From assembly GCF_001027285.1 (NCBI RefSeq), contig NZ_CP011509.1, forward strand, positions 7,030,501 to 7,094,500: a DNA stretch of 64,000 nucleotides. Direction: 5' to 3'. Position numbers and translations under genes: made by a program. Below are positions 1,754-30,137 of this stretch, one piece after another; position 1 is the first letter of the stretch, and each line of letters opens with the position of its first letter. This DNA comes from Archangium gephyra. GTDB taxonomy: Bacteria > Myxococcota > Myxococcia > Myxococcales > Myxococcaceae. A model generated the notes under the pieces. The model saw only the letters and a program-made list of their open reading frames with translations, ran no database searches and was not told the origin of the DNA.

Positions 1754-2608
1754 ACGGGGCAAGCCCGCCTTACGCGGACCCTCTGTCCGCGCGCTGGCGC
1801 AGCTCGCTCCACGCTTGATTGAGCTTGCGCGTCTCCTCCGCGGCCAGCGCCTGGAGCTTCGGCCCCAGCTGCGCCACCTTGTCCGGGTGGTACTGGGTGA
1901 TGAGGGCCAGGTAGGCCTGCTTCACCTCGGCCAGGGGCGTGCCCGGCGCCACGCCGAGCACCTCCCAGGGGCTGTGGGGGGCGGGCCTCGCGGCAGCGGG
2001 CGGCTCGGGCTCTTCGGGCTCGGGGGGTTCTTCTTCCACGAGCGGCCTGGCCCCGAGCTCCTCCGCGCACGCCGTACACAGCAACAGCTCACGGGCTCCC
2101 GGCAGCGCGTAGTCGCCGAAGCAATCGCCACACACCATCCGCCGGCAGTGCTCGCAGCGCGCGGCGCAGTCGACCTGATCGAGCGAGGCCGCGCACGAGA
2201 AACACTCCTCGGGCAGCGGAGCCTCCTCGCCGCATGCAGTGCAGAAAGCCCAGGTGGGCTCGAGCTTCGCCTCGCACCCCGCGCACGCGGGCGCGCTCTC
2301 CTCGGTGGAGGGCCGCCAGCGCTGCGCCGTGGCGCACCAGGGGCAGTACGGCATCAGCCAGGCCACCTTGCCCTCGCACCGGCGGGAACGGCAGTCGAAG
2401 TCGAGTGCATAGCCCTCGGCGGAGTCCTGGGCTTCGTTCTCCTCCTCGAAGGACTCGCCGCAGGCCCAGCAGGCGTTGAAGGCCTCGTACGAGGGAGCTC
2501 CACACGCGTCGCACAGGGGGTTGCCGTGCTCGGCCTCCCATTCCAGCTCCAGGCCGCAGCACGGGCAGCACCGCATCCACCGGACCGCCCGAGGGTGCGT
2601 ACAGGCCG
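1754..2608. repeat. Left copy of ~855-bp direct repeat
   Basis: This segment is repeated almost perfectly at 8720-9574. Identity starts near the shared GGGGCAAGCC and stops abruptly after a shared GTACAGGCCG. I see only a handful of substitutions and one base of length difference near the left end. The right copy lies inside an intact gene, so this copy is probably the duplicate. Confidence 0.95.
1770..2576 (-). pseudogene. 5'-truncated copy of the zinc-ribbon/J-domain gene
   Basis: An open frame of 268 residues is nearly identical to the C-terminal two-thirds of the intact protein encoded at 8736-9869; differences include Tyr for His and Glu for Lys at single positions. It keeps several CxxC zinc pairs (for example CCPCCGLELEW, CWACGESF) and the C-terminal J-domain with its HPD motif (QYHPDKV). 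The first ~110 residues, the native start and the upstream operon genes are missing. Just past the repeat boundary at 2608 the frame meets a stop, so only an internal Met could start translation. It is most likely a non-functional duplicate, although an internally initiated J-domain fragment cannot be excluded. Confidence 0.85.
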
Positions 2609-4410: not shown

Positions 4411-7400
4411 CGCGACGGTGACGCTTTCGGGGCTGCTCAACGGACCGGCGACGGTCTGTCCCGGGCCGTCGGCGGGTATTGCCTGCACCGCGATCATCCA
4501 GATGCCAACGGCCACGGGAGTCGGCAGCGTGATGCTGCCGCTCTGGCTCTCTCCTGAAACGGCGGGAACGGCTTGCGATCCGGTCGCGCCGTCGGGACTT
4601 GTCCAGGCGAGTGCATAGGAGCCGGCGCCGGCAACGCTGTCCCAGGTGGCGTCAATGGCGGTCGTCGTCGCACTGGCGGCGAGGCCGGCCGGGGCGGGCA
4701 GCCGAGTCAGGGCCAGCGGCGCCGAGGCCGTGCTCGGAATGGTTCCGGCGCCGCCCACCGCCGTCACCGCCACCGCATAGGCGCCCGCCAGATCGGTGGG
4801 GATAAAGCGCAGCGTCGCGTTCGGCGTTTGAGTGGTGACGGTAGCGCTTTTGCCACCGGACAGGTCCACGACATAGCCAGTGGCGCCGGTGACCGCCTTC
4901 CAGCTGATCTCGATCGCGACGTCGGGGGCGGTCGCCGCTGCTGGCTGGCCGGTCAGCCCGACGGGCGCCGCGAGGCGGGTGAGAGTGAGCTGCGCGGGCG
5001 GGCTCGGAACGGTCGCGGCGCCACCCGTTGCCGCCACGGCGACGATATAGTCGCCGGCCGGATCCGTGGGGGTGAAGCTCAGCGTGATGCTCGGGCTCAG
5101 GCTGGTCGGGCTCTCGCTCTTGCCGCCCGAGACCGACACGGCATAGCCGGTGGCGCCAGCGACCGCCGTCCAGCTGATCTCTACCGCGACATCGGGAGCC
5201 GTCGCGGGTGCAGGGCGGCTCGCCAGGTTCGTCGGCGCCGCCAGGAAGCTGACAGAAGTGGTCGAGGCCGGCGAGTCTCCGGCCGGATTGCTGGCGACGA
5301 CCGCGATGGTGCAAACCGTCGGCAGTGGCGTCGGCGGCTGGATGTTGGTGAAGGTGTAGGCACTGGAGTTGTAGGGCAGCGGTCCGCTGCCGCCCATCGA
5401 CCCGCCTGGACCAGTCAATGTCGCCGTGTAGTTCTGCCCGCCGCTGCTCAGCAGCCACTGGGCCGTGATCGCCGAGCCGCTGATCGACGCCGTGAGGTTG
5501 GCTGGAGCGGCCGGCGGCGAGTTCCGGCCACCGCCACCGCCACCGCCACCGCCACCGCCACCGCCACCGCCACCGTGCGAACTGGAGCTCGCGGCGACCA
5601 CCGTCGCCACGGCGACTCCGGCCGTGCCCAGCGCGCTCCCGGCCGCCGCGGCACCGGCTTCGGCGGCGGCGCCGACGGCGCCATCCGCGAGCCCTTCGCA
5701 GATCAAGGTCGCGGCATAGGCGACGGCCTTCCGACCCGCGAACAGCACCAGGAAGTTGGCGATTGCGTCGGGGTTCGCGAGCAGCGCCTCGACGAACGAC
5801 TGCGCCGCCGCGCCGATCGCGTTGGCGATCACCGTCCACAGGTAATGGGGGCTGCCGGAATCCAGATTGACGCTGTTCGGGATCGGTATCACCAGTGCAT
5901 TCGGCAAGGTGACGGTGGCGAACGCCGTTCCGGAGAAGCTCAGCGTGTAGCTGATCGAAAGCGAGAGGCTCAAGCCGCCGCTTCCGGAGCTGAAGCTCGG
6001 CGATATCTTGTAGCTCTGGCCGAGGAGGTTCGTCAGCAGGAAATCCGCGATCTGGCCGCAATTGCCGCTCCCGGCATCGGCCAGCTTCTTCAATTCGGAG
6101 AAGAAGTCGATGAGATCGTCCAGCGCCTGTATATCGGGCCAGTTGGTGATCCTGAAGCCCTGGGCGCTGCTGTAGCTGAAGCCCAGCTGGTCGGAGGCCT
6201 TGAGGAGGGGAGGGTAATCCTTCGCCGGGCTGAGGGAAGCGGTGACCAGGAGTTTGCCAGCGTCGTCCCTGGTCGCGGCGACCGTGGCATTGATGCCGAA
6301 ATTCTCCTGGAAGAAGAGCAGCGCCCCCGTGAAGCTCATCGTGCCGCTGTTGCCGGCCGTGCTGATCGAGAGCTTCGGGCCTTGTGCGGCATTCTCCTGC
6401 CGCGTGATCCGAAGGACATAGATGTCGATCGGATTGGCGATGTCGATCGAAGCCGTCACTCCTTTGTTGTTGACGACGACGGTGCCCGCGACGTCGATCG
6501 TGTCGAGGAGGCTGAGTTCGAAGAAGGCGGAGAGGTTGAACCCCTTCGCGAAGGTGACGCTGGTCGGGCTGCTCGGGACCGGAGCGGACGCGCTGCTTCC
6601 CCCACCCGAGGCCGGCTGCGTGCCCGAATCGGCCGGAACGGGCAGCAAGGTCGGCCCCGTTCCGTCGTTCGACAGCGTCAGGGTGAGCGGCGCGTCGCTG
6701 TTGTTGTAATAGACCTGCGCTCCCGCTTGGAGCGTGAGGTCGACGAGGCTGCTCGGCCAGCTCGCCCCGGGAATGCACTGCTCGAAGAGCGTGCTGATCG
6801 ACGCCGACTGGGTGAAGACGACGCTCGCCAGAACGGGCGTCGTGCTCTGCATATAGAGCAGGCCGGTAAACTGCAGACTTGCGAAACTGCAATTGCCGCG
6901 AAGCATGAATTGCGCGGCACTCTTGTTTTTTCCGTACGGATAATAGAGGTTGAACTTGACGTCGGTGAACGAAATTTTCGGGAACTCGCCCCCGAACAGT
7001 GATTTGAGATTCGCGGTGCCCTTTGCGGCGACGTTGGCGGTGACCGCTTGAACTCCACTGTCGGAGAGGACCGAACCGGAAAACGTGAAATTGCTGCCGA
7101 AGACGGAGACGTCGATTTCGCCGACGGCGGCGATGCGCTTAGAATTCTCGATGCTGTAACTGACGATGACGTCACGGAACGTGAAGATGTCGAAGAGGCT
7201 GAACGATCCGGACAGCGCGATCGTATACTTCGCCGCCTTGATCGCTTTAGCGGCTTGCAAGTTCGCGAAGGTGGCGGCAAGCGACAACTGGCTGCCGCTC
7301 GCCACGCCGATGTCGACAAGGCTCCCGAACAAGCCGCCGTCGCCGTTGCTCCCGCCGAGGTCCACGGTCAGCCAGAAGCTGGTCGTATCCGTGACCGGCG

Positions 7401-7701
7401 TGGCGGCGCTCGCCACCGTCGCCGGGACAGGCGATTGCGGAAAGATGCTGCCCAGGGTCGCTTGCCGCGCGCCGGCGGCCGCCGAGTAGGTGAAGAAGCC
7501 GGCGGAGGCGACGTTCAGCGAAGCCTTGCCGAGGCCGAGATCGAACGCCTCGTTCAACGCCGCGAGGACGTCGAAATTTCTGATCTCGGCGTAGATAAGG
7601 CTGTAGCTTCCGCAGAGCTCAAGCCTGCAGTCTGTCGTGAAACCTAGCCTACTTCCGAAGATCTCGGAAAACTGAAAGGCTCCGCTGATACCGATGCGCA
7701 T
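3709..7701 (-). CDS. 1330-aa multidomain protein: beta-rich region, Gly linker, Fn3-like domains, three 78-aa repeats
   Basis: Residues 1-640 are beta-rich and repetitive in style (many FSGSF, TFSGSV, FTGALLFF strands). An alanine-rich hydrophobic stretch at ~640-705 is followed by a run of about 16 glycines at ~710-725. Residues ~730-1090 hold three or four Fn3/Ig-like modules (ISWTAVAGATGYAVSV, ISWKAVTGATGYVVDL, ATWDSVAGAGSYALAW). Residues ~1097-1330 are three 78-residue repeats beginning TPEELARSCFSGNVDG. No classical signal peptide is visible, so export (if any) would be by another route. The style (wording of Fn3 modules, GAT/GAC-Ala mix, less extreme GC in the 5' part) differs from the flanking myxobacterial genes, which suggests transfer. 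It sits between the small gene at 7774 and the lectin gene. An adhesin or self-assembling surface protein is a guess. Confidence 0.8.
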   Translation of the reverse strand: MRIGISGAFQFSEIFGSRLGFTTDCRLELCGSYSLIYAEIRNFDVLAALNEAFDLGLGKASLNVASAGFFTYSAAAGARQATLGSIFPQSPVPATVASAATPVTDTTSFWLTVDLGGSNGDGGLFGSLVDIGVASGSQLSLAATFANLQAAKAIKAAKYTIALSGSFSLFDIFTFRDVIVSYSIENSKRIAAVGEIDVSVFGSNFTFSGSVLSDSGVQAVTANVAAKGTANLKSLFGGEFPKISFTDVKFNLYYPYGKNKSAAQFMLRGNCSFASLQFTGLLYMQSTTPVLASVVFTQSASISTLFEQCIPGASWPSSLVDLTLQAGAQVYYNNSDAPLTLTLSNDGTGPTLLPVPADSGTQPASGGGSSASAPVPSSPTSVTFAKGFNLSAFFELSLLDTIDVAGTVVVNNKGVTASIDIANPIDIYVLRITRQENAAQGPKLSISTAGNSGTMSFTGALLFFQENFGINATVAATRDDAGKLLVTASLSPAKDYPPLLKASDQLGFSYSSAQGFRITNWPDIQALDDLIDFFSELKKLADAGSGNCGQIADFLLTNLLGQSYKISPSFSSGSGGLSLSLSISYTLSFSGTAFATVTLPNALVIPIPNSVNLDSGSPHYLWTVIANAIGAAAQSFVEALLANPDAIANFLVLFAGRKAVAYAATLICEGLADGAVGAAAEAGAAAAGSALGTAGVAVATVVAASSSSHGGGGGGGGGGGGGGGGRNSPPAAPANLTASISGSAITAQWLLSSGGQNYTATLTGPGGSMGGSGPLPYNSSAYTFTNIQPPTPLPTVCTIAVVASNPAGDSPASTTSVSFLAAPTNLASRPAPATAPDVAVEISWTAVAGATGYAVSVSGGKSESPTSLSPSITLSFTPTDPAGDYIVAVAATGGAATVPSPPAQLTLTRLAAPVGLTGQPAAATAPDVAIEISWKAVTGATGYVVDLSGGKSATVTTQTPNATLRFIPTDLAGAYAVAVTAVGGAGTIPSTASAPLALTRLPAPAGLAASATTTAIDATWDSVAGAGSYALAWTSPDGATGSQAVPAVSGESQSGSITLPTPVAVGIWMIAVQAIPADGPGQTVAGPLSSPESVTVASAQTPEELARSCFSGNVDGAGCGQRLIQAFPTLTAKTLAAAMAEGGYAAAATAAGLHTAFPSITPVEMAQALAQAYPPAPQTPEELARSCFSGNVDGAGCGQRLIQAFPTLTAKTLAAAMAEGGYAAAATAAGLHAAFPSITPVEMAQALAQAYPPAPQTPEELARSCFSGNVDGAACGQQLIQAFPTLTVEALAAAMAQGGYPATATAAGLHTAFPSITPAQMATALAQAYP
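5524..5575. repeat. CCACCG simple repeat encoding a poly-glycine linker
   Basis: About eight CCACCG units on the plus strand encode a run of glycines on the minus strand, joining the beta-rich part of the 1330-aa protein to its Fn3-like modules. Such a hexamer run is prone to slippage in whole-codon steps and so to in-frame length change. Confidence 0.9.
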
Positions 7702-8719: not shown

Positions 8720-9574
8720 CGGGGCAAGCCCCCCCTTACGCGGACCCTCTGTCCGCGCGCTGGCGCAGCTCGCTCCACGCTTGATTGAGCTTGCGCGTCT
8801 CCTCCGCGGCCAGCGCCTGGAGCTTCGGCCCCAGCTGCGCCACCTTGTCCGGGTGGTACTGGGTGATGAGGGCCAGGTAGGCCTGCTTCACCTCGGCCAG
8901 GGGCGTGCCCGGCGCCACGCCGAGCACCTCCCAGGGGCTGTGGGGAGCGGGCCTCGCGGCGGCGGGCGGCTCGGGCTCTTCGGGCTCGGGGGCTTCTTCT
9001 TCCACGAGCGGCCTGGCCCCGAGCTCCTCCGCGCACGCCGTACACAGCAACAGCTCACGGGCTCCCGGCAGCGCGTAGTCGCCGAAGCAATCGCCACACA
9101 CCATCCGCCGGCAGTGCTCGCAGCGCGCGGCGCAGTCGACCTGATCGAGCGAGGCCGCGCACGAGAAACACTCCTCGGGCAGCGGAGCCTCCTCGCCGCA
9201 CGCGGTGCAGAAAGCCCAGGTGGGCTCGAGCTTCGCCTCGCACCCCGCGCACGCGGGCGCGCTCTCCTCGGTGGAGGGCCGCCAGCGCTGCGCCGTGGCG
9301 CACCAGGGGCAGTACGGCATCAGCCAGGCCACCTTGCCCTCGCACCGGCGGGAACGGCAGTCGAAGTCGAGTGCATAGCCCTCGGCGGAGTCCTGGGCTT
9401 CGTTCTTCTCCTCGAAGGACTCGCCGCAGGCCCAGCAGGCGTTGAAGGCCTCGTGCGAGGGAGCTCCACATGCGTCGCACAGGGGGTTGCCGTGCTCGGC
9501 CTCCCATTCCAGCTCCAGGCCGCAGCAGGGGCAGCACCGCATCCACCGGACCGCCCGAGGGTGCGTACAGGCCG
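8720..9574. repeat. Right copy of ~855-bp direct repeat (within an intact gene)
   Basis: This is the mate of 1754-2608, in the same orientation. It starts ~16 bases beyond the stop codon of the J-domain gene and ends inside that gene at its ~105th codon. Recombination between the copies would delete ~7 kb (the whole lectin island) and leave one intact gene. Confidence 0.95.
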
Positions 9575-9869
9575 CCTGCGCCGCCCGCCTGCGCCGGCCC
9601 GGAGGCTCGGGGAAGGATGGGGTCCCGCCGCGAGCCGCGAGCGCTTCCCACAAGCAGCTGGCACAGGCCTGCCTCCGCGAGGCCCGAGGCGTCTTCGTGC
9701 CTTCGGGGCCCGCGTTCTGGAAGAGCACCTCCACGTCCGGCGAGCCCGAGCGCAGGCAGTGCTGGCACACCTCATCCCCACAGAGCCCGCAGCTGCCCGC
9801 GAGCCGCCGGCCACCGAGTCCCAGCAGGGCGGGCGTCAGGACCTCCAGGCAGCACGGGCACTCGGACAT
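8736..9869 (-). CDS. Multi-zinc-ribbon protein with C-terminal J-domain
   Basis: The product is 377 residues starting MSECPCCLEV at 9869; a TTG seven codons upstream is possible and would overlap the preceding stop. Residues 1-280 hold a chain of about eight CxxC pairs (CPCC, CGLC, CCPCC, CDAC, CWAC, CPWC, CAGC, CTAC, CEHC), consistent with several zinc ribbons or B-box/RING-like knuckles. A Glu/Pro-rich linker follows, then a J-domain at ~310-377 with HPD intact (QYHPDKV) and flanking helices. J-domains stimulate Hsp70 ATPases, and here the zinc array probably selects clients. It is the last gene of the ATPase operon, 17 bases from the end of the 766-aa ATPase gene. The domain order (zinc array first, J-domain last) is unlike DnaJ, so it is a type III J-protein. 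A truncated copy lies at 1770-2576. Confidence 0.9.
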   Translation of the reverse strand: MSECPCCLEVLTPALLGLGGRRLAGSCGLCGDEVCQHCLRSGSPDVEVLFQNAGPEGTKTPRASRRQACASCLWEALAARGGTPSFPEPPGRRRRAAQAACTHPRAVRWMRCCPCCGLELEWEAEHGNPLCDACGAPSHEAFNACWACGESFEEKNEAQDSAEGYALDFDCRSRRCEGKVAWLMPYCPWCATAQRWRPSTEESAPACAGCEAKLEPTWAFCTACGEEAPLPEECFSCAASLDQVDCAARCEHCRRMVCGDCFGDYALPGARELLLCTACAEELGARPLVEEEAPEPEEPEPPAAARPAPHSPWEVLGVAPGTPLAEVKQAYLALITQYHPDKVAQLGPKLQALAAEETRKLNQAWSELRQRADRGSA

Positions 9870-9886
9870 GGGCGCAGTATACCGCT

Positions 9887-12187
9887 TCAATCTCCGAGCA
9901 CCGTCGCGACGGCCCGGTACTCCGGCCGCAGCATCCGCTCGGCTTCCGTTCCGGCGACCACCACCGGGAGCATCGCGCCCTCCAGCCCCGCCTCGGCCGA
10001 GAGCTTCACGGCGATGGGCGCCATCACCTTCGCCTCGATGAGCCGCTTCAACGGCCGGGCGCCCAGCTTCGGATCGTACCCGTGACGGGCCAACCAGGCC
10101 CGTGCGTCCGGCTCGACCACCAGCCGCAGTCTGCGCCGCAGCAGTCCCGCCCGGGAGGCCGCCTTCTCCAGCTCCAGGTCGACGATCCGCAGCACATCCG
10201 CCTCCGACAGCCGGCGAAACGGAATGACGTGGTCGATGCGGTTGAACAGCTCCGGCCGGAAGGCCTGGCGGATGGCGCGCATGAAGTCCTCCGAGCCGCG
10301 CTCGGCCCCGAAGCCCGCGGGCTCCGACTGCTCGACGCCGAGGTTGCTCGTCATGCAGACCACCGCCATCCGGAAGTCCACCAGCCTCCCGAGGCTGTCC
10401 GTCAGCCTCCCCTCCCCCAGGATGCCGAGCAGCAGATCGAACACCTCGGGGTGTGCCTTCTCGATCTCATCGAAGAGCACTAGCGACATCGGCTGCTGCC
10501 GCACCCGCTCGGCGAGGCTGGTGATGCCGGGGCCCACCTCCATCAACCGCTGGGCCGAGCCGGGCAGCATGTACTCGGACATGTCGAGCCGGATCATCCG
10601 GTCCTCGTTGCCGAAGAGCGTGCGCGAGAGCTGCTTGGACAGCTCCGTCTTCCCCACGCCCGTGGGCCCGGCGAAGAGCAGCGTGCCCACCGGCTTCTCC
10701 GGATCGTTGAGCCCCGCCTTGAAGCGCGCCAGCACGCCCGCCGCCAGCTCGCAGGCGCGATCCTGGCCGATGACGCCCTGCCGCAACTGTCCCGCCAGCG
10801 AGGCCTGCTCGGCGGGCACCTCATCGCTGATGAGCTGGAGCGGCAGTCCCGTATAACGCGCGTAGGCCTCGGAGGCGTCGCGCGGATAGAGCGTCCGGGC
10901 CTTGCCCGGCTCCCCCTGCTGCTCCAGCCAGTCGAGGAACCGGAAGGCCTTGCCCGGAAACAGGCTGTCGCGCTGGAACGTCTCCAGGTGCCCGACGAGC
11001 TGCCTCAACCCCAGGGCATGGATGCTCACGCGGCTGCGCTTCGCCGCCTGGTAGCGCAGCATCAGCTCCGGCACCTGCGAGGCCGGGGGCGGCTCGATGC
11101 GGATGATGCGGAAGGGCCGCAGCGACTCCGGGAAACGCCGCTGGCAGCGCTCGAGCTCGGCCTCGGTGCACTCGGCGATCATGGAGATCTCCCCGCTCAT
11201 CGCCGCGGGCAGCAGCAGATCTCCAATGGACGAGCCATCCGGCTGGGGCGCGAGGATCGACGTGAGCCGGTCCACGTAGAGGTAGTCGTTCTCGTAGGAG
11301 AGCGCGTCGACGATCTTCAGGCAGCGCTCCTGCCACATGCCCAGGTACACCATGCCGGCGACGATGCGCTCGGCGCTGGTGCGCCAGATCCTCGGCAGGT
11401 TCGCCTTCTTGTCCTCACGCCGCTGCTCGGCGATCAGGCGCGCGAGCTTCAGCACCTGGCTCGTCTTGCCGGAGCCCGGTCCGCCGACGAGCAGCAGCGA
11501 CTGGGGTGGCTGGCGCTGCGCGTGGGCGAGCCAGGTGCGCATCGACTCAGCGTCGTACACCAGTGCCGGCTGCCTTCCGCCCAGGGCGCGCGAGGTCAGC
11601 TCCTCGCTGATCTGATCGAGCACCTCCGGCGGACGCTCCTCGGACGGGCCGCGCCGATTGTCCCGCTGTAGCCAACCGAGGTCCCAGCTGCTCACGTACT
11701 CCACGCCCTCGTGGCGGAAGTCGTACAGCCCCTTGGGCTTCTCCCCGAGCAACACCGTGGTGAGCGCGTTCTGCAACACCTCACGCGCGATGGCGAGGTC
11801 CTCGAGCACGAACGACCAGCCGAAGCGCGGCACCCTCACGCGCCAGGCGCCGCTCTCCAGCTTCCCGTAGACGTACGTCAGCTTCAGCGGAATCAGCGCC
11901 TTGGCGATCACCGGCCGCTTCTTGTGCAGGGTCTGCGGGTGGATCTCCACGGTGATCGTCCGCGCCTCCAGGTTCTCCTCCCAGAGGAACCGCTCGAGCC
12001 CGGCGGGGTTCTCGAGCAGCATCATCCGGATGCGGGTCTCCAGCAGCGCGTAGATCTCCGCCTCGCTGTTGCCATAGGCCGAGGGCGGGGGCTCATCGAA
12101 GAAGCTGTCCCAGACCGGCAGGAGCTGCCCGGTGAGCCGGCCATCGTGGTGGGTGGTGAAGTAGACGCGAAGGCTCTTGTCGCTCAT
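9887..12187 (-). CDS. ClpA/ClpB-like double AAA+ ATPase, short form (766 aa)
   Basis: The start at 12187 (MSDKSLRV) overlaps the upstream stop as ATGA. Residues 1-150 form a novel N-domain, not Clp_N, shared in outline with the two ATPases upstream. AAA1: Walker A GGPGSGKT (235-242), pore-loop-like AGMVYLGMWQER, and a Walker B reading LYVDR (303-307) in which the catalytic Glu is Arg. AAA2: GPTGVGKT (507-514), LVLFDEIEK (569-577), sensor-1 MTSN, Arg finger FRPELFNRID and sensor-2 GARPLKR, all intact. The ~272-residue spacing between P-loops matches ClpA, so there is no ClpB M-domain. The GYVG-type pore loop expected after the AAA2 Walker A is absent. It is probably a hexameric remodeller powered by AAA2. 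Unlike its two siblings it ends soon after sensor-2. Confidence 0.9.
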   Translation of the reverse strand: MSDKSLRVYFTTHHDGRLTGQLLPVWDSFFDEPPPSAYGNSEAEIYALLETRIRMMLLENPAGLERFLWEENLEARTITVEIHPQTLHKKRPVIAKALIPLKLTYVYGKLESGAWRVRVPRFGWSFVLEDLAIAREVLQNALTTVLLGEKPKGLYDFRHEGVEYVSSWDLGWLQRDNRRGPSEERPPEVLDQISEELTSRALGGRQPALVYDAESMRTWLAHAQRQPPQSLLLVGGPGSGKTSQVLKLARLIAEQRREDKKANLPRIWRTSAERIVAGMVYLGMWQERCLKIVDALSYENDYLYVDRLTSILAPQPDGSSIGDLLLPAAMSGEISMIAECTEAELERCQRRFPESLRPFRIIRIEPPPASQVPELMLRYQAAKRSRVSIHALGLRQLVGHLETFQRDSLFPGKAFRFLDWLEQQGEPGKARTLYPRDASEAYARYTGLPLQLISDEVPAEQASLAGQLRQGVIGQDRACELAAGVLARFKAGLNDPEKPVGTLLFAGPTGVGKTELSKQLSRTLFGNEDRMIRLDMSEYMLPGSAQRLMEVGPGITSLAERVRQQPMSLVLFDEIEKAHPEVFDLLLGILGEGRLTDSLGRLVDFRMAVVCMTSNLGVEQSEPAGFGAERGSEDFMRAIRQAFRPELFNRIDHVIPFRRLSEADVLRIVDLELEKAASRAGLLRRRLRLVVEPDARAWLARHGYDPKLGARPLKRLIEAKVMAPIAVKLSAEAGLEGAMLPVVVAGTEAERMLRPEYRAVATVLGD

Positions 12188-15100
12188 GGAGTCACCCGCT
12201 CGCTCATCCGCAGCCGCCACAGGGCCGGCAGGGCCTCGGCGGGAGTCCTCACCCGGTGGCTGCCGCTGTGGGTCAGCAGGTAGTCATCGAGCTCCAGCAC
12301 CGATACCGCGCCCGGACGGGCGGGCGGCTCGAAGCGGTAGGCGCGAACGACGGGGGCCGCCGCCTCGGGATCCTCCGGGAGCGGACGCACGCCCTCCTGG
12401 CGCGCCTTGTGGAAGGTCTGGAGCTTCATGGCATGCAGCGCGAGCAGCTCCGCGGGCGCTGGCGCACTCGCCTCGTGGACGCGCACCTTGACGATCTCCG
12501 GGAGCCGGCCCGAGGACTGCCACACGTGCAACCCGGCCTCGCCCTCGAAGAACGGCCGCACGCCCGGACCCACCAGTTTGATCGCGGCGTGTACGGGCTC
12601 CTGCATGGACAGGTGCAGGAACTCCCGGAGCTGCCGGGGACCGCCGGACACCACGGCCCCACCGGGCAGGTGCGCGGCGAAGGCCTCGATCTCCCCACGC
12701 GAGTGCGCATAGGCCGAGCAGAGCCACCGGGCGAGCAGCGAGCCGGTGGACGCGCCCTGGCGCCACTGGCCGAGCGGGAGCAGCTCCAGCATGACCACGT
12801 GCTGATCCGGGCTGGAGAGCCCGCGGAGGATGCGTTGCAGGAAGTAGACCTCCGACAGCGCATCGAGCATCTGCTCGCGGGAGACGGCCTTCACCGGCTC
12901 CAACGCGCGCCGGTCGAAGAGCCGGATGCGTGTCCCCTGGGACCAGCGGTCGGCGCCAATCCGCTCCACGCCGAAGCGATCGGCCTCGATCATCTCCCGC
13001 TCCGTCTCCTCGGGAGCGCGGGCGAGGGACTCCAGCTGCACCGCGAAGGCCTCCAGGTACATCCGCATCGCATCGAGCGTGAAGAGCGACTCGGCGTGAT
13101 CCTGCTCCCCCGCCCGCAGGCGCTCCAGGTGGAAGCGGACCTGCTCGGACAGCGCGCCGAGTGCCTCGCTCTCACGCATCTCCTGAACCACCTCGCGCAG
13201 CTCGAGCATCTTCTCGCGCAGCCGCGCGATGGGGAGCGACAGGAGCGGCTCCAGCGCGAAACCGTGGGCCAGCGGCTCCCGGGGAATGAGCGCATCGGCC
13301 TGCACCTCGAAGCGCCCGTCCCGGGTGTAGAGCTGGAACAACCGCATGAGGGCCTGGGGTCCCCGGATGATGGCATCGGAGAGGACCTGCCCGACCTTCT
13401 CCTCCAGGTAGCGCTTCAGCGGCCTCGCGCCCAGGTGGGCATCGAAGGCCTCCTCGACGATGCGCCGCTTCACCGCCTCGTCGGCGGCCACGAAGACGTT
13501 GCGGGAGACGAGCCCGTGCCGCGACAGCAGCCGCGCCAGCTCCTTCTCGACGACCTTCTCGCCCACCTCCCGCGACAGCGGCGAGAAGTGCACGATGCGA
13601 TCGATGCGGTTGAAGAGCTCGGGCGGGAAGAACTCGCGCACGGCCCGGTCCGCATCCAGCTCCAGGGAGCGCGCGTCCGGCGCACCGAGGCCCACCGCCG
13701 GCTTGCGCCGGGCCCCGAGGTTGCTCGTCATCACGATGACGGTATGGGTGAAGTCCGCCGTCTCGCCCGAGGCGTCCGTCAGCCGGCCCTCGTCGAACGT
13801 CTGCAGCAGCAGGTTGAGCAGCGAGGGGTGCGCCTTCTCGATCTCATCGAGCAGCACGAGCGAGAAGGGTTGCTCGCGGATGAGGCGCGTCAGCCGGCCC
13901 TCGGGCTGCCAGGCGTCGCCCGTGAGCCGCGCGACGGCATCCGGCGTCTGGAACTCGCCCATGTCGAGCCGTATCAGGCGCGACGCATCGCCATACAGGT
14001 AGCTGGCCAGCGCGCGGGCGAGCTCGGTCTTTCCGGTGCCCGTGGGTCCGGTGAACAGATAGACACCATAGGGGCGCCGGGGATCGGTGAGTCCGGCGTG
14101 GATGCGCGCGACGAGATCGCACGCCACCCGCACCGGCTCCAGCTGCCCCATCACCTTGCGCGCCAGGGCCTCGTGGACCTCCTCGGGCACCAGCCGCTCC
14201 TGGGGGCGCAGGAGGAAGTCCGGCAGGCCCGTCCTGCGCGAGAGGTGCGCGAAGAGCTCGCCGATGCCCAACTCCCGGCCCGGGCTCCCCTGGTCCGTGG
14301 CCAGCTCGCGCAGCAGATCGAGCGCCTTGCCCGGAAGCGCGGACCCGGAGAAGAGCGTCCCCGCCTGCTCCAGCAGCACCGGGAAGAGCGGAGGAGACCA
14401 GGCGATGCGGTGCTTGGACTCCAGCTCACGCGCCTCGTGCAGCAGCATGCGGAGCGTCTCGTCGGTGCGGGTGGAGCGCACGTGCACCTGGGTGAAGAGC
14501 GCGGCGAAGGACGGGGCGTCCGTCTCCAGCCGCTGGAGCTGCTCGGGCGTCACCGTCCCGGCGAGCGTGAGCTCCCCTCGGGAGAGCGCGCCCTGGAAGA
14601 AGAGCGCGAGGTTGGTGTCACTCTCCCGCGAGCGGCCGATGCGGCCGAAGGCATGCAGATCCTCGACGAAGAGGATGCGCCGCCCTCCCCTCGTGTCCTC
14701 GAGCACCTTGAGGCAGCGCTGCTCCCAGTCGCCCACGTAGCTCATGCCGGCGATGATCCGCTTGCCGGCGATCGACCAGACCTCGGTCACCTTGTCCAGG
14801 TTGCGATGGGTCTGGAAACCCTCGGCTTCGAGCTGCTCGGCCACGAAGCGCTTGAGCAGGGTCCGCTTGCCGCAGCCGGGAGGCCCGACGAGCAGCACCG
14901 GTGTGCGCCGCTCGCCTCCGAGCAGGAGCTGGAGTTGCTCGCGATAGGGACTGCGCGGCATGCCGGTGTCGAGCGTGCCCTCGGCGGCCTGGAGGGTGAG
15001 GTTCATCCCCAGCTTGTGCAGCACCTGGGTGCCGCCGCCCGACTTCTTCTTCTTCTTGCCGCCACGTTCCCGCCGGTCCTCGGCCTCCAGGTCGTCCCAG

Positions 15101-15651
15101 GGCCCCTTCTTCTTGCCCAGCTCGTCGAGCAGCGACTTCGGGTGGGCCATGAAGGCGAGCGCCTTGAGGGTGTCCTTGCGGTTGGAGCGCAGCTCATCGT
15201 GCTGGTGCGGCTCCAGCTGGGCCCAGGCGCGGGTGAAGAAGAGCTTCGCCTGATCCTCCAGAGAGGCGCCGGTGTCGACCGGGAACCACTCGTGCTGGCG
15301 CGAGGGGTGGTAGGCGATGGTCATGAGCTCATCGCGCGTGCGCCAGCGCGGCTCGAGGATGAGGGGAAAGAGGCCCGACAGCCGTGGCGTCTCGGTTCCG
15401 GTGCGCACGCGCTTGAAGTCGAGCTCGAGCTGCACCCGCTCCAGGCGGATGCCTCGGGGGAGCTGGAAGTAAGACAGATCCCGGACGGGCAGCTCGCCGA
15501 TGATGCTCCGGAGCTCCTCCACGAGCTTCTGCTGGAGCTTGACGGTGCTGCGGCCCTCGCGGTCGCGGGTATGCGGGCCGAGCGCGAGCGTGGTCCACCG
15601 GTAGCCACCGGAGGCATCGCGGCTCTGGTACACGCCAATGGTGAGGTTCAT
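12184..15651 (-). CDS. ClpA/ClpB-like double AAA+ ATPase with C-terminal release-factor-like region (1155 aa)
   Basis: The start at 15651 (MNLTIGVYQS) overlaps the upstream stop as ATGA. N-domain ~1-150, then a Lys-rich linker (~190-205). AAA1 is damaged: Walker A GPPGCGKR (256-263) has Arg where Thr/Ser is required, and Walker B is LFVED (327-331). AAA2 is intact: GPTGTGKT (535-542), LVLLDEIEK (598-606), FPPELFNRID, GARPLKR; the GYVG loop is missing. Residues ~770-940 are long helices (REKMLELREVVQEM). From ~946 to the end the sequence follows the PCRF domain of class I release factors: a strand, an amphipathic LLARWLCSAYAHSRGEIEAF, a strand, FFEGEAGLHVW (compare E-x-GVHR), and VVRAYRFEPP (compare IRTYNFPQ). 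No GGQ motif occurs. The PCRF reading is by eye and needs a profile search. Confidence 0.85.
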   Translation of the reverse strand: MNLTIGVYQSRDASGGYRWTTLALGPHTRDREGRSTVKLQQKLVEELRSIIGELPVRDLSYFQLPRGIRLERVQLELDFKRVRTGTETPRLSGLFPLILEPRWRTRDELMTIAYHPSRQHEWFPVDTGASLEDQAKLFFTRAWAQLEPHQHDELRSNRKDTLKALAFMAHPKSLLDELGKKKGPWDDLEAEDRRERGGKKKKKSGGGTQVLHKLGMNLTLQAAEGTLDTGMPRSPYREQLQLLLGGERRTPVLLVGPPGCGKRTLLKRFVAEQLEAEGFQTHRNLDKVTEVWSIAGKRIIAGMSYVGDWEQRCLKVLEDTRGGRRILFVEDLHAFGRIGRSRESDTNLALFFQGALSRGELTLAGTVTPEQLQRLETDAPSFAALFTQVHVRSTRTDETLRMLLHEARELESKHRIAWSPPLFPVLLEQAGTLFSGSALPGKALDLLRELATDQGSPGRELGIGELFAHLSRRTGLPDFLLRPQERLVPEEVHEALARKVMGQLEPVRVACDLVARIHAGLTDPRRPYGVYLFTGPTGTGKTELARALASYLYGDASRLIRLDMGEFQTPDAVARLTGDAWQPEGRLTRLIREQPFSLVLLDEIEKAHPSLLNLLLQTFDEGRLTDASGETADFTHTVIVMTSNLGARRKPAVGLGAPDARSLELDADRAVREFFPPELFNRIDRIVHFSPLSREVGEKVVEKELARLLSRHGLVSRNVFVAADEAVKRRIVEEAFDAHLGARPLKRYLEEKVGQVLSDAIIRGPQALMRLFQLYTRDGRFEVQADALIPREPLAHGFALEPLLSLPIARLREKMLELREVVQEMRESEALGALSEQVRFHLERLRAGEQDHAESLFTLDAMRMYLEAFAVQLESLARAPEETEREMIEADRFGVERIGADRWSQGTRIRLFDRRALEPVKAVSREQMLDALSEVYFLQRILRGLSSPDQHVVMLELLPLGQWRQGASTGSLLARWLCSAYAHSRGEIEAFAAHLPGGAVVSGGPRQLREFLHLSMQEPVHAAIKLVGPGVRPFFEGEAGLHVWQSSGRLPEIVKVRVHEASAPAPAELLALHAMKLQTFHKARQEGVRPLPEDPEAAAPVVRAYRFEPPARPGAVSVLELDDYLLTHSGSHRVRTPAEALPALWRLRMSERVTP

Positions 15652-18600
15652 CGGGCCACCCCCCTGATGGCGTCGAGCGCGAAGGTGAAGCCACTCTCGG
15701 GATCGAAGTTCCCGGAGTGTTCGAGGAGAAGGATGTGTTCGAGCAGGATCCGCTCGAGCGCCGGGAAGTGCTCCCAGGGATCCAGCTGAAGCTTGCGAGC
15801 GCCATCGCACAGCAAGAGCTCGCCGCCGGGGAGGTACTCACGGACGGCCGGCATCAGCCGCAGCTCCCGGAGCTCCTTGCCGGCCCGTTGCGCCGGAGGG
15901 GCGATGGCTGGCAGCTCGAGCTCCTTCTGGAACAGCTGGGTGGACATGGCCACGGGCCTGACGTCGACCAGGACCAGCTCGTCCTGCTCCGTGGGGGGAT
16001 AGCGATGCAGACCGGCCTCGAGCGCCAGGAAGACCCCCGCGTTCGTGCCGTTGACCAACAGCAGCACCTCCCGGAAGGCACGCGTGGGCGCGGCCAGCTC
16101 CCTCCTGAGCTGCTGCGCCCCGAGCAGCTTGTCCTCCCATTTGCGCTTGCGATCGCTGCCCTTGTGGGTGACCGAGACGCGGCCCTCGACCGTCCAGCCG
16201 CGCCGGGGCGCATCCTCGAGCAGCGGCACGAGCCAGTGCTCGAGGCCGCGCGTCTCCCCCGCTTCCTGGAGGATCAACGTGATCTGATCCCTCCGGGGCT
16301 GGAGCGCGAGCAGCAGGGACGGCATCAACTGGCGGAGGGCCTTCATCTGCTGGAGGGCGTCGTCCACGAAGGGAGCGGCATCCTGCTGCTCGAAGAGCGC
16401 CATCAGCGCCAGCTCCTCGGCGGCCAGGAGCGCCGCGCGCAACCGCCGGGCCTCGCTCCAGAGCGCCTCGAGCCGGCTGTGTTCGTGCTGGAGCTGACCC
16501 AGCGAGGAGGCCTCGGGCCCACGCAGCTTCTTCTGGTCGCCGCCCTGGGCGAGCTGGGCCACCAGGAAGTGGATCCGCTCCCCGACGTTCTCCACGGCAT
16601 CCATCCGGAAGAGCAGGTCGAGGGCCCGCCGCTGCTCCTGCAGGTCACGCACGAGGTCGAGCTGGTTGCGCGCCGTCTTCGGACTGCCCTTGGACAGCTC
16701 CACGGCGATGCCCCCGGGACGGGAGGCGATCACCACACGTCCCCCCTGGGCCTCGGGCCCGGCCGCGGAGAGCGCGCGGGCGATGGGCACGACGAGCTGC
16801 TGGTCCAGGTGCCTGCGCATGGCCCGGGCGCCGTAGGCCTCCTGGTAGCCGGAGGTGGCGAGCGCGGTGGTGATCTCGGGAGGGACGAGCAGCGAGACTC
16901 CGCGCTGCATCAACCCGCGCCGCTGCCGCAGCTTGTCCACGCCGAGCCGGGCCACCTCCGCCGCCTGCTCCGAGGTGAGTGGGTGGAAGGGAATGAGCTG
17001 GTCGATGCGGTTGACGAACTCGGGGCGGAAGTGCCGGTGCACCTCGCGCACGTAGTACGAGGCGTCATCCACCGAGGTGGCGCCAATGCCCAGCGGGGAG
17101 CGGCGGTGCGCCACCCCGAGGTTGCTCGTCATGATGATGATGGCGTTGTGGAACCACGCCGTCTGCCCCCGGGCATCGGTGAGCCGCCCTTCCCCGCACA
17201 CCTGCAGGAGCAGATCGAAGACGGACGGGTGGGCCTTCTCGATCTCATCGAGCAGGAGCACGCAGAAGGGCTGCTGGCGGACGCGGCGCGTGAGCAGCCC
17301 CTCGCCCTGGTTGTTGCCCCGGATGAGCCGTTCGGCGGCCCAGCCATCCATGAACTCGCTCATGTCGAAGCGGAACATCCGCTCCGGCGAGCCGAAGAGG
17401 AACGTGGCGAGCAGCCGCGCGAGCTCCGTCTTCCCGACGCCCGTGGGGCCCACGAAGAGGAAGGTGGCCAGCGGTTTGCCCTGGGGCTGGAGCCCCGCCT
17501 TCACCATGCACAGCGTCTCCACGACGCGGCGCACCGCCGTCTCCTGGCCGACGAGCTGGCGGCGGAAGTGCGCCTCGACCTCACCGGCGAGCAAGGCGCG
17601 GTCCTCGCGCAGCAGGAACTCGGGGACGCCGGTCTTGAGGCTGAAGAGCGAGTACACCCGCTCGCGGGTGAGCAGGGGCACCTCGCCGGTACCGGTGCGC
17701 TCCTGTTGCAGGCCCGCGCGCATCTCCTCGTACAAACGTATCGCCTTGCCGGGCAGCGCGCGGCTCGGCAGGTAGCGCTCGGCCAGGTCCACGAGTGGAT
17801 CCACCGCGTCGTCGGCCAGCGAGGAGCGCGAGGGCTCCTCCTTCCGTTGCCAGACCGTCCGGCTCCGGAGCGCCTCGCGCGTCTGCCGGGTCCCCAGAGG
17901 CTCCAGGCGCACGCGCCCGAGCACCGCGAAGAGGCCCGGGTGCCGGTTCTCGAGCAGATCCAACGACTCCGGGGTGAGCTCGCCGAGGAAACGCACCCGG
18001 CCCTCCTCCAGGAAGGGCTTCATCGCGCCGGGGATGTCGACGTGCTCCGTGGACTGCTGCGCGAGCAGCTCCCCGAGGTTCTCGAAATACAGGACGGCAT
18101 CGAGCTCCTGTGCCGCGCGCATGACACGCAGCACGCGCTCCTGCCACTGGCCGAAGCCGGACATCCCGGCGATCAAGCGCGAACCACTCGTGGCGTACAC
18201 CCGCCGCTCGCGGCCGGCCTTCCGCTCGGCGCGGAGCCACGCGAGGAGCAGCTCCGTCTTGCCCACGAGCTCCGGGCCCACGAGCAGCACGCCCTGCCGC
18301 TTCTCGCCGCCGAGCAGGCCGGACAGCAACGCGAGCTCGGTGTCCCGGGCAATGAGGGGCGGTCCATGCCGGGCCTCGTCGCGATCATGCAGGGGCGTGG
18401 AGACGGAGAGCAGCACCTGGTGCGCCTGCTCCCGCTTGAGCTTCTCCTCCAGCTTCTTCTTCGCCTGCCGGGCCTTGTCGCTCGCGTCCTGGCGCCGGAG
18501 CGCGAGCTGGACGGTCTCGAGCGTCACGGACTTGGGAGGCAGCAGCCGCAGGTACTCATCGGCGGCCGGCTCGCGCGCGGCGAGCAACCGCTCCACGTCC

Positions 18601-19013
18601 GCGCGCACCGTCTCCCGGACGTCCTGGTTCCTGCCCACGTAGACCGTGTGATCGATCGCCGGGACGAAGACCCAGGTCTCCTCCGGGAGTGGCACGACGA
18701 TGGCGGCCAGCTCGACGGTGACGGGCTTGACCAGGCGCTTGGGCAGATCGGCGCGGGGCGCGAGGATCTCCAGCATCTCGAGCCGCACCTGCTCGGGGAA
18801 GGAGAAGCGGGCCAGCTCCTCGGGCTCCACCCTGGACAGGTGCTCCTCGAGGAACAGGCGCTGCTCGCCCAGACAGGCCTCGAGGGTGGGCGCGTGGCTC
18901 GTCAGGGCCGGCGCGGCCACGGGGAACACCTGATGGTCCCCGTTCCAGAGCTGCTGGCAGACGAGCGGCGTGGAGAACTCGAGGGTTCCGGGGACGGCAT
19001 GGGAAGGGGCCAT
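15648..19013 (-). CDS. ClpA/ClpB-like double AAA+ ATPase with C-terminal release-factor-like region (1121 aa)
   Basis: Starts at 19013, 25 bases after the lipoprotein gene. The N-domain (1-150) has the strand pattern WVFVPAIDHTVYVG, comparable to WRVRVPRFGWSFVL in the short sibling; a Lys-rich coiled stretch is at ~178-197. AAA1: Walker A GPELVGKT (246-253) is intact, pore loop AGMSGFGQWQER, Walker B VLYFEN (307-312) lacks both Asp and Glu. AAA2: GPTGVGKT (522-529), LLLDEIEK, FRPEFVNRID, and sensor-2 altered to GARAMRR; no GYVG loop. Residues ~770-900 are helical. Residues ~905-1121 again resemble a release-factor PCRF domain: VLLLVNGTNAGVFLALEAGL followed by HR matches the G-x-x-Ay-x-L-x-E-x-GVHR signature closely, and MPAVREYLPGG sits where IRTYNFPQ is expected. 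No GGQ. It is probably a partner subunit rather than a replacement for its siblings. Confidence 0.88.
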   Translation of the reverse strand: MAPSHAVPGTLEFSTPLVCQQLWNGDHQVFPVAAPALTSHAPTLEACLGEQRLFLEEHLSRVEPEELARFSFPEQVRLEMLEILAPRADLPKRLVKPVTVELAAIVVPLPEETWVFVPAIDHTVYVGRNQDVRETVRADVERLLAAREPAADEYLRLLPPKSVTLETVQLALRRQDASDKARQAKKKLEEKLKREQAHQVLLSVSTPLHDRDEARHGPPLIARDTELALLSGLLGGEKRQGVLLVGPELVGKTELLLAWLRAERKAGRERRVYATSGSRLIAGMSGFGQWQERVLRVMRAAQELDAVLYFENLGELLAQQSTEHVDIPGAMKPFLEEGRVRFLGELTPESLDLLENRHPGLFAVLGRVRLEPLGTRQTREALRSRTVWQRKEEPSRSSLADDAVDPLVDLAERYLPSRALPGKAIRLYEEMRAGLQQERTGTGEVPLLTRERVYSLFSLKTGVPEFLLREDRALLAGEVEAHFRRQLVGQETAVRRVVETLCMVKAGLQPQGKPLATFLFVGPTGVGKTELARLLATFLFGSPERMFRFDMSEFMDGWAAERLIRGNNQGEGLLTRRVRQQPFCVLLLDEIEKAHPSVFDLLLQVCGEGRLTDARGQTAWFHNAIIIMTSNLGVAHRRSPLGIGATSVDDASYYVREVHRHFRPEFVNRIDQLIPFHPLTSEQAAEVARLGVDKLRQRRGLMQRGVSLLVPPEITTALATSGYQEAYGARAMRRHLDQQLVVPIARALSAAGPEAQGGRVVIASRPGGIAVELSKGSPKTARNQLDLVRDLQEQRRALDLLFRMDAVENVGERIHFLVAQLAQGGDQKKLRGPEASSLGQLQHEHSRLEALWSEARRLRAALLAAEELALMALFEQQDAAPFVDDALQQMKALRQLMPSLLLALQPRRDQITLILQEAGETRGLEHWLVPLLEDAPRRGWTVEGRVSVTHKGSDRKRKWEDKLLGAQQLRRELAAPTRAFREVLLLVNGTNAGVFLALEAGLHRYPPTEQDELVLVDVRPVAMSTQLFQKELELPAIAPPAQRAGKELRELRLMPAVREYLPGGELLLCDGARKLQLDPWEHFPALERILLEHILLLEHSGNFDPESGFTFALDAIRGVAR

Positions 19014-27938: not shown

Positions 27939-28934
27939 TCAGCCCAGGTGCTGCAGCTCGCGCGAGAGCAGGGTCTCCAGGTCCCGGATGTTGCGGTACA
28001 CGAGGCAGCGGTGGCCCGCGACGTCGAACTTGAGCTCCTTGAGGTCGCGGACGAGCAGGATGGTGGGCCGTCCCCTGCCCCACGCGTAGCCGACCTCCAG
28101 GTACACGTTCGGGTTGGCCATGGAGAGGTCCGCGATGACGACCTTCGCGGTGTCGATTCGCTCCTTGATGCGCTGGATGATGGCGCCCTCGAACACGGCC
28201 TGATCCACGCGCTCGCACAGGAGCCCCGCGCCCTTCACGGGGCCCAGGATGCCGTAGTGGTAGACGTCCTCCATCTCGGCGGCGAAGGGCATGGCGACGA
28301 AGGCGTGGGGCTTGGCCAGTGACTGCGCCCCGGCCGTGGCCATGGGCGGCGCCTGGACGTGCTGGCTCATGCGCTTGACGCGGAAGCCCCAGCCGCTCGT
28401 CAGGGGCTCCACCCCCGGGCTCTTCCCGAGTCCCCGCTCCAGCGCCGTGCGCAGCCGCTCCGCGCGCTTCTGCTGCAGCTCCACCACGGTGATGCGCTCC
28501 AGCCCCTGCGGCCCGGCGCCCCGCGTGAAGGCCTCGACGAGGCCTCCGACGAGCGCGAGCGCCGCCTCGTCCTCGTCCAGGCCGTAGTTGGGACCGTGCA
28601 CCGTGCAGGCGATGTGGCGGAGGTCCGAGCGCGACTCGAGCGCCTTGAGCGCCCGGGCCGCGAACTGGCGGATCTCGTGGTAGCCGAACTTCCCCAGCTT
28701 CACGGTGCCGAGGAAGAGGGCCAGGGGCGCGCCGATGGCGCCCCGCGTCTCGATGAAGACGTGATCCCCGATGGGCACCGAGAAGCTCGCCATCGGGATG
28801 CCCACCTGCACGAGCCGCGAGGCCACGGCCTGATCCGCGCCGTAGAAGCTCTGGGCGTGCTTGAGCAGCACCACGTCCGCGCGCGTGTCGGTGATGTTTC
28901 CGGCTTCCAGGACGACTTCGAGGGCAGCGCTCAT
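27939..28934 (-). CDS. Macro-like (M17-N-type) domain fused to TIR-like/nucleoside-deoxyribosyltransferase-like domain
   Basis: The product is 331 residues from the ATG at 28934. Residues 1-180 resemble the macro-fold N-domain of M17 leucyl aminopeptidases (LEVVLEAGNITDTRADVVLL, later GIPMASFSVPIGDHVF and HIACTVHGPNYGLD), without the peptidase domain. Residues ~205-331 have the signature of the TIR-like/deoxyribosyltransferase-like superfamily: HAFVAMPFAAEMEDVYHYGI, a GLLCERVD strand, IIQRIKERIDTAKVVIADLS and NPNVYLEVGYAWG with its candidate catalytic Glu, then ILLVRD. Such domains occur as NAD- or nucleotide-cleaving effectors and as sensors in bacterial immunity. Pairing with a macro-like nucleotide-binding fold suggests ADP-ribose or nucleotide signalling; this is inference. 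The much longer open frame upstream (to 31376) is antisense to two other genes. Confidence 0.75.
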   Translation of the reverse strand: MSAALEVVLEAGNITDTRADVVLLKHAQSFYGADQAVASRLVQVGIPMASFSVPIGDHVFIETRGAIGAPLALFLGTVKLGKFGYHEIRQFAARALKALESRSDLRHIACTVHGPNYGLDEDEAALALVGGLVEAFTRGAGPQGLERITVVELQQKRAERLRTALERGLGKSPGVEPLTSGWGFRVKRMSQHVQAPPMATAGAQSLAKPHAFVAMPFAAEMEDVYHYGILGPVKGAGLLCERVDQAVFEGAIIQRIKERIDTAKVVIADLSMANPNVYLEVGYAWGRGRPTILLVRDLKELKFDVAGHRCLVYRNIRDLETLLSRELQHLG

Positions 28935-29002
28935 CGGCGGGGACTGTCGCACGGAGGGGGCGGGCCCGTCACCGGGGTCCGCGCGGTGGAAACGGCTCCG
29001 AG

Positions 29003-30076
29003 CTACGCCGGAGCGACCTCGACCGCGCCTCCCGGCTCCACCGTCACGCGCACGGGCAGGAAGCGCTCGATGAGCCACGCATGCGTGGTGAGGTGATCCG
29101 TCACCCGCGCCGTCGTGTAGCGCGTCGTCCCCGGAGAGGAAGGGCCCAGCCGGCCCGCCGCCAGCAGCGCCGCGGGCAGGAGGATCTGATCCGCGAGGTG
29201 TTCGTCCAGCGCGCCCCCACTCTCCATGAAGCGCGCCACCTCTTCCGCCGCCTCGCGCCCCACGTCCTCCGCCGGACGCCCCCGCTTCCCCAGGGCCGTG
29301 AAGCCGGCGATGGTGTGCTCGAACTGCGCCAGGATGAACGTCACCGTGCCCACCGAGTGCGTCACCGGCAGCGGCCGGTTCTCCGCGTGGCTGTAGATAC
29401 CCCGCTCGCGCAGTGCCGCCACCGCCTCCTTGGACTGCCGCTCCGCGATGCCGAACGGCAGCCCGCCCACGAACGAGCCCACCGCGATGTCTCGCAGCGT
29501 CCCGCGTGCCGGTAGCTCCACCCGGCTGGGCGGATCTCGCACCGGCTCCACCTCGGCGATGAACTCTCCCGCCCCCTGTGGGTAGAAGCCCGCGTGCACC
29601 AGGCGCAGCGAGGCGTTCAGCCCGTAGGCCTTCGCCACCGGCAGCCACACGCCCACCACGTAGTGGTAGCTGGGGCTGTGCGGCAGGTGCGTCCCGCCGC
29701 GCAGGGTGAGCGAGCCGCCCCCCGCCAGCGCCAGCGGATAGAAGAGGCACTGGAAGAGCAGCGGCGTGCTGCCCGCCGTGCCCACCTCCAGCACGTAGTC
29801 GCCCGGGCGTACCGGTGCTGGCTCGAAGCGCAGCTCCGAGGCTCCCACCGCCGCGCCCTCGCTCTGGCCCCCGCTGATGGCCTCGGCGCCCCGCACGCAG
29901 GCGAGGTGCTGCGGCCTCAACCCCGGCGGCTGGCGGTTGGCCCTCACGTTCTTCATGTGGAAGGGCCTCCCGGTGATGAGCGACAGCGAGAGCGCCGAGC
30001 GGAGGATCTGCCCTCCTCCCTCGCCCTCGCTTCCGTCGAGCTCCACCGGTCCGTCGTGGCGGTCGGTGCCTGCCAT
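29003..30076 (-). CDS. rtcA: RNA 3'-terminal phosphate cyclase
   Basis: The product is 357 residues, starting at the ATG at 30076 (MAGTDRHDG), preceded by GGAGGGGAG; a GTG seven codons earlier is possible. The enzyme uses ATP to convert an RNA 3'-phosphate to a 2',3'-cyclic phosphate through an adenylated His. Diagnostic segments are DGSEGEGGGQILRSALSLS near the N-terminus, RANRQPPGLRPQHLACV, GGGSLTLRGGTHLPHSPS, FYPQGAGEF, and the C-terminal LADQILLPAAL followed by VTDHLTTHAWLIERFL, which holds the expected catalytic His. Length is normal (340-360). No RtcB ligase is nearby, so the usual repair pair is not an operon here. Divergent from the SLC13-like permease gene at ~60 bases. Confidence 0.93.
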   Translation of the reverse strand: MAGTDRHDGPVELDGSEGEGGGQILRSALSLSLITGRPFHMKNVRANRQPPGLRPQHLACVRGAEAISGGQSEGAAVGASELRFEPAPVRPGDYVLEVGTAGSTPLLFQCLFYPLALAGGGSLTLRGGTHLPHSPSYHYVVGVWLPVAKAYGLNASLRLVHAGFYPQGAGEFIAEVEPVRDPPSRVELPARGTLRDIAVGSFVGGLPFGIAERQSKEAVAALRERGIYSHAENRPLPVTHSVGTVTFILAQFEHTIAGFTALGKRGRPAEDVGREAAEEVARFMESGGALDEHLADQILLPAALLAAGRLGPSSPGTTRYTTARVTDHLTTHAWLIERFLPVRVTVEPGGAVEVAPA

Positions 30077-30137
30077 CTCCCCTCCGGGAAAGTCCACCGC
30101 AGCCTAGCAGAAGGCTTTCGGTTACTGTCCGCCCGCC

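Follow-up and report, generated by a model that had tools for sequence, protein, structure and literature searches.

Gene B encodes a 1155-aa protein in which two Clp-type AAA+ domains are followed by about 385 further residues, the last 210 of which have the predicted superdomain 2/4 fold of a class-I release factor (RF). Together with its relatives it apparently represents an undescribed family, conserved in myxobacteria, of Clp-like ATPases with a dead RF2 tail. The reading that we favor, and hold to be probable by a modest degree, is that B belongs to a Myxococcota family of Clp/Hsp100-like double-ring ATPases which are driven by D2 and carry their dead, RF2-derived tail as a non-catalytic docking domain, with a likely partner in translation. 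The DNA analyzed (the window, 64,000 nucleotides in all) spans bases 7030501-7094500 of a 12.49-Mb single-contig genome. Within it, nothing unusual was found outside the cassette that contains B, and the remainder is ordinary chromosome. A 1145-aa open reading frame at 27939-31376 (minus strand) has almost no Pfam coverage, its sole match being a weak, C-terminal one to a nucleoside deoxyribosyltransferase-like domain.

The predicted fold of the gene B tail

The open reading frame of gene B is real, and each of the 14 genomes carrying it has it intact. Tail identity among these genomes is 67-94%, and a dN/dS of 0.11-0.36 indicates purifying selection on the tail. Relatives of the B tail come from the named organisms Archangium violaceum, A. 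lansinium, and Hyalangium versicolor; the closest fall in the same genus, which marks the source as an Archangium-like myxobacterium. A match in one further genome (G069, L018) was rejected as fortuitous, since the gene region there is unrelated and contains a stop. The features of gene B are as follows.

15651-12184, minus strand: gene B, 1155 aa, with an N-terminal region, a degenerate AAA+ D1, an intact D2 and an RF-like tail
14332-14916, minus strand: AAA+ D1; Walker A present, Walker B with ED in place of DE, no arginine-finger LERRF, SYVG aromatic pore loop kept
13360-14076, minus strand: AAA+ D2; Walker A/B, sensor 1 and arginine finger intact, GYVG missing, VGLG at the ClpP-loop position
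~12817-13257, minus strand: residues ~799-945, helical, putative counterpart of RF2 domain 1 (weaker evidence, pLDDT partly low)
12187-12816, minus strand: residues 946-1155, RF superdomain 2/4 fold (PCRF-like) with domain 3/GGQ replaced, from the predicted fold and PDB comparison
12520-12552, minus strand: FFEGEAGLHVW, counterpart of the RF E-x-GVHR element by profile alignment of B with Clp-RF2; near-invariant in 14 orthologues
12394-12456, minus strand: single helix (tail 297-317) at the insertion site of the GGQ-bearing RF domain 3, in the predicted model
12322-12351, minus strand: VVRAYRFEPP strand, at the position of RF domain-4 IRTYNFPQ/IRSYVL, placed by element order and not by residue-level structural alignment

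The tail structure was predicted from an alignment of the 14 orthologues, with no templates and no release factor included. The mean pLDDT of the model is 63, a modest confidence (63-67 over the tail models), and its elements follow the order expected for an RF. They comprise strands (E) and helices (H) at E183-191, H203-213, E218-225, H236-245, E252-258, E272-277, E284-290, H297-317, E332-338, E348-354, E359-365, and H368-381 in tail numbering. The strand and helix order that the initial annotation had read from the sequence is thus found in the predicted model, and both motifs that it had singled out, FFEGEAGLHVW and VVRAYRFEPP, are present. It had also proposed structure prediction as a check, and the fold obtained was not an unrelated one. 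In a Foldseek comparison with the PDB the first 25 rows were RF1/RF2 (best E 4.5e-5), and VIA-align likewise had RF1/RF2 alone in its first 42 rows, with Z of 8-10.5 except for one partial RF2 chain at 6.5; the first unrelated row had a Z of 5.9. The best row was 1rq0 (Z 10.5, 3.2 Å over 134 residues, model 176-385), and its span coincides with the annotated interval 12187-12816 (model 177-386). Rows such as 1gqe place model residues 37-382 on RF2 4-363, with a large rmsd. At the level of the predicted model, the class-I RF superdomain 2/4 fold of the B tail is confirmed, and the RF-like part probably extends upstream of 12187-12816 as the domain-1-like helices at ~12817-13257.

The initial annotation had also proposed a profile search against release factors, and with B alone the outcome of sequence searches was negative. 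No PCRF match was returned by Pfam and no RF match by NCBIfam or by a PDB sequence search, and the direct profile comparison of B with RF1/RF2 (hhalign) remained at noise level, as did that of A with B. It is the relatives A, A', and Clp-RF2 (described below) that match release factors instead. The profile of the B tail does align with that of the Clp-RF2 tail from the same genome, with a score of 43.3 compared to at most 22.6 for 50 column shuffles and 14.5 for the reversed profile. This alignment covers the core strand and pairs GEAGLH with GEAGLH. Column shuffles were used as the null for profile comparisons because block shuffles left the core motif intact, which made them a poor null in the comparison of A with Clp-RF2.

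The failure of B alone could also be taken to mean that the resemblance is convergent or a prediction artifact, with no kinship between the tail and release factors, in line with the missing Pfam and PDB sequence matches and the noise-level comparison with RF2. We consider this highly improbable, given that sister proteins have significant RF2 similarity at the same position, that the B profile matches the Clp-RF2 tail, and that release factors fill the top 42 structural rows. Since fold and relatives agree, the failure is read as divergence.

The A-B-C cassette and its relatives

Gene B lies between two genes of the same ATPase family, and proteins related to it are encoded elsewhere in the same genome and in other genera.

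15648-19013, minus strand: gene A, 1121-aa Clp-like ATPase with its own RF tail; its stop overlaps the B start (ATGA)
15651-16721, minus strand: A tail, RF2-like domains 1, 2 and 4, from the Pfam top match in orthologues, fold and profile comparison
16002-16031, minus strand: A tail element FLALEAGLHR
9887-12220, minus strand: gene C, 777 aa, same ATPase family, no tail
8736-9890, minus strand: gene D, zinc ribbons and a J domain
G000:C1:3626602-3629424 (L033:6603-9428), minus strand: Clp-RF2 (P0009), stand-alone 941-aa Clp-like ATPase with an RF2 tail
L158:7435-16550: A'-B'-C' cassette in another genus

The ATG of gene C is probably at 12187, where it overlaps the B stop (ATGA). The ATGA overlaps at both junctions suggest translational coupling, and A-B-C is probably a translationally coupled three-gene cassette. 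Gene D was considered as a further member and rejected, as it is not beside A-B-C in other genomes. It is duplicated in the window, with a copy at 1770-2576 (minus strand) that is 99% identical over D residues 107-384. The A-B-C order is kept in differing neighborhoods among genomes and also in the divergent lineage. In one genome (L155), PAAR-like and Rhs-repeat open reading frames lie directly downstream of gene C, after position 14386 as counted in cassette orientation.

The central proposal of the initial annotation, a PCRF-like end of the RF1/RF2 kind on a Clp-type AAA+ protein, is upheld for B as a predicted RF fold, and more firmly than the sequence alone allowed, as gene A, Clp-RF2, and the A' cassette also have an RF-like end without GGQ. 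Among the A tails, all 14 orthologues have PCRF as their top Pfam family (best E 7e-5); the A protein of the window itself scores 16.6 bits, under the cut-off of 24. The predicted model of the A tail has an RF fold by Foldseek (best E 6e-6) and aligns with RF2 at a Z of 11.6 over 258 residues (rmsd 5.8 Å), a score which helical rows tie. Compared with a profile of Clp-RF2 and RF2, the A tail scores 51.5 over 178 columns, and shuffles reach at most 22.8.

A PCRF search of the same genome found RF1, RF2, and a third protein, Clp-RF2, which is encoded by a lone gene outside any cassette. Its tail passes the Pfam cut-off for PCRF (E 6e-19) and matches domains 1-2 of E. coli RF2 with an E of 2.5e-17; another segment, a weak one, falls in domain 4. 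This tail comprises nearly the whole RF2 fold, including a domain 3 remnant, and has a strongly conserved domain-4 motif (RVEDPRTG..TPR.KDVLRGELD.FIAAW). By a hand count of rows, Clp-RF2 is present in ~87 of 195 genomes of the phylum (~84 full and 3 partial). Nearly all carriers belong to one myxobacterial family, and nearly all genomes of that family have the gene.

In other genera a divergent cassette, A'-B'-C', has the same order and similar lengths. A' tails were found in 41 and B' tails in 37 of the 195 Myxococcota genomes. The one A' tail tested passes the Pfam cut-off for PCRF (E 2.6e-8), and the profile-profile comparison of A' with RF2 gives an E of 4.5e-8 over 214 columns; the B' tail shows no RF signal in Pfam and profile searches. 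None of the genomes searched has both the Archangium-type cassette (14 genomes) and the A' type, which is consistent with one cassette that diverged. Taken together, the two types are present in roughly one in four of the genomes sampled from the phylum; genomes beyond Myxococcota were covered by one scan with the B tail. A further A'-B'-C' cassette was seen in G050 (L229), and in two distant families A' genes occur singly (L227, L228). In another genome (G120), two 219-aa open reading frames (L161:2000-2656 and 6786-7442, minus strand) match RF1/RF2 over the C-terminal part only, from PCRF positions 147-194 onward, and are possibly duplicate stand-alone rescue-type RFs.

This distribution bears on the idea that the cassette is a biological-conflict or phage-defense system in which an RF decoy senses attack on translation. 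The cassette is patchily present and its neighbors vary by genome, with Rhs/PAAR-like genes after C in one; yet PADLOC returned generic AAA+ similarity only, and the cassette is found in 27 of 27 sampled genomes of one genus, as vertical inheritance there predicts. We regard a defense role as improbable.

In ATPase trees A, B, C, and Clp-RF2 stand apart from the canonical Clps. The tree built on D1-D2 groups A/B/C with A'/B'/C' and places Clp-RF2 nearer to the canonical Clps, a topology that is compatible with one ancient as well as with two separate RF2 fusions.

Lost loops and altered rings

In the decoding center RF2 uses its stop-codon loop (SPF in RF2, PxT in RF1) and GGxE helix tip, and in the peptidyl-transferase center GGQ. 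The annotation had remarked that B has no GGQ, and indeed the motif occurs in 0/15 B sequences as well as in 0/15 A and 0/32 A', compared to 22/22 RF2 and 32/32 RF1. In Clp-RF2, GGQ is not in the domain-3 position, and the few GGQ strings that occur belong to the linker or to a shifted frame. SPF was not found in B, and a PxT-like string in 1/15 B and 6/15 A is unconserved; across A, B, A', and Clp-RF2, neither SPF nor the GGxE tip is conserved, where present at all. Judged from these motifs, the tails are catalytically and decoding-dead RF2-derived domains. With its domain 3 remnant and strongly conserved domain-4 motif, Clp-RF2 resembles an RF2 stripped of its two active loops.

The tails share with RF2 (prfB; PF03462 PCRF plus domain 4) the order of the domain 2/4 fold, the E-x-G-[VL]-H element, and domain-1-like helices, and Clp-RF2 in particular keeps the FWDD/LWDD and RTG..T motifs. 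They differ from it in having no GGQ, SPF loop, or GGxE tip and in being fused behind two AAA+ domains, and B is too divergent for Pfam. Other RF descendants, namely PrfH, mtRF1, and ArfB/ICT1, no longer take part in stop-codon-directed termination; they keep GGQ and hydrolyze peptidyl-tRNA, unlike the tails of this family.

The ATPase part of B matches AAA_2 (E 1.3e-39) and ClpB_D2-small (E 1.8e-12) in Pfam. Its best NCBIfam matches, ClpA/ClpB, are far under their cut-offs, and its N-terminal region gave no Clp_N match. Four canonical Clp ATPases encoded in this genome served as the reference in an alignment of family members. The D1 Walker-B DE and arginine-finger motifs are lost in all aligned members and intact in the four canonical Clps; the D1 pore-loop aromatic is kept in most members examined. 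In D2, 150/150 sequences retain Walker A and B and 140/150 the arginine-finger pattern, and the GYVG pore loop, present in the four canonical Clps, occurs in 0/150. The family is like ClpA/ClpC/ClpB (Hsp100) in its two AAA+ rings, the D2 Walker A/B, sensor 1, and arginine finger, and the D2-small domain, and unlike them in its N-terminal region, the lost D1 Walker B and arginine finger, the lost D2 GYVG, and the added RF tail. The tripeptide at the ClpP-loop position, [LIV]GF in its canonical form and [LIV]-G-[FL] in the wider pattern for ClpP docking by ClpA/C/X, is [ILMV]GF in 49/50 Clp-RF2 and VGF in 31/32 A'. Within the cassette it is VG[IL] in B, [LIM]GI in A, and AGF/VGY in C. ClpP docking is plausible for some members and would be no more than a possibility for B.

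Candidate roles of the tail

In our preferred reading, the RF tail would be a non-catalytic docking domain. D2, with all the motifs for ATP hydrolysis, would be the only motor, and D1 would bind nucleotide and act as a scaffold. Docking of the ring on ClpP is possible, as the retained ClpP-loop-like tripeptide suggests, and A, B, and C probably co-assemble. The most likely partner of the dead RF2 would be the translation machinery, either the ribosome or a termination/rescue complex. Such a partner is favored because the RF2 fold was selected to bind it and because Clp-RF2 retains almost the whole fold. The loss of the loops that contact mRNA and the peptidyl-transferase center leaves no feature specific to ribosome binding to be cited; ribosome docking of the tail would be plausible.

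Almost as likely as a partner in the translation machinery is a role purely in assembly or in the regulation of ClpP. Here the RF fold would have been exapted as a protein-protein module which holds the A-B-C rings together or regulates ClpP docking, making no contact with the ribosome. This would agree with the loss of every RF functional loop, with the co-occurrence of A and B tails beside a tailless C in the cassettes examined, and with the attachment of the tail on what is, from general knowledge, the ClpP-proximal side. The A tail also evolves fast, its dN/dS of 0.39-0.51 denoting weaker constraint than on the B tail. An assembly tag, however, would have no need of the nearly whole RF2 fold and domain 3 remnant that the lone Clp-RF2 keeps. 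Taken as a whole this explanation is possible, if leaning to unlikely.

The initial annotation had proposed that the tail is a module binding the ribosome or a tRNA site, by which an active unfoldase would be recruited to stalled ribosomes, there to extract or process nascent chains. The RF2 descent of the family, the intact D2 motor motifs, and the ClpP-loop-like tripeptide are what it would lead one to expect; the absence of GGQ and SPF/PxT and the lost GGxE tip are not. As for the term unfoldase, the catalytic motifs of D2 speak for it, and the GYVG that is missing in every member counted, together with the degenerate D1 Walker B, makes ordinary threading doubtful. In Clp complexes ClpP docks on the D2 side and the entrance is at D1. 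The tail leaves D2 on the ClpP-docking side, away from the D1 entrance, and would thus be a poor fit with the feeding of nascent chains. We hold this proposal to be doubtful. Similarly tentative, and rather unlikely, is a broader extension of the docking model, by which dead-RF2 tails would tether D2-powered rings, whether ClpP is bound or not, to ribosomes or to complexes of termination independently of stop codons, as a myxobacterial quality-control route apart from tmRNA, ArfA/ArfB, and RqcH.

For Myxococcus xanthus, two ClpPs and three ClpXs are reported along with eight copies of clpA/B/C that are less conserved (PMC11423568), and the Clp-RF family may be among these eight. A release factor is nowhere mentioned in that paper, and the text of a survey of RF evolution is without Clp, ClpA, ClpB, or unfoldase (PMC6514570). 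Our literature search, which covered mainly open-access papers, found no description of a Clp-release factor fusion.

The combination of these domains, a release factor and a Clp-type ATPase, is not described in the literature searched. With Clp-RF2 in nearly all genomes of one family and cassettes in roughly a quarter of the phylum sample, it is not the curiosity of one strain. Clp-RF2, as the best-conserved member, is the best entry point for experiments. The family is a testable candidate link between termination/rescue and Clp-type proteolysis, and could connect the quality control of proteins with the ribosome. It would be an example of a translation factor that, stripped of both active loops, persists as a docking domain on a protein-remodeling motor.
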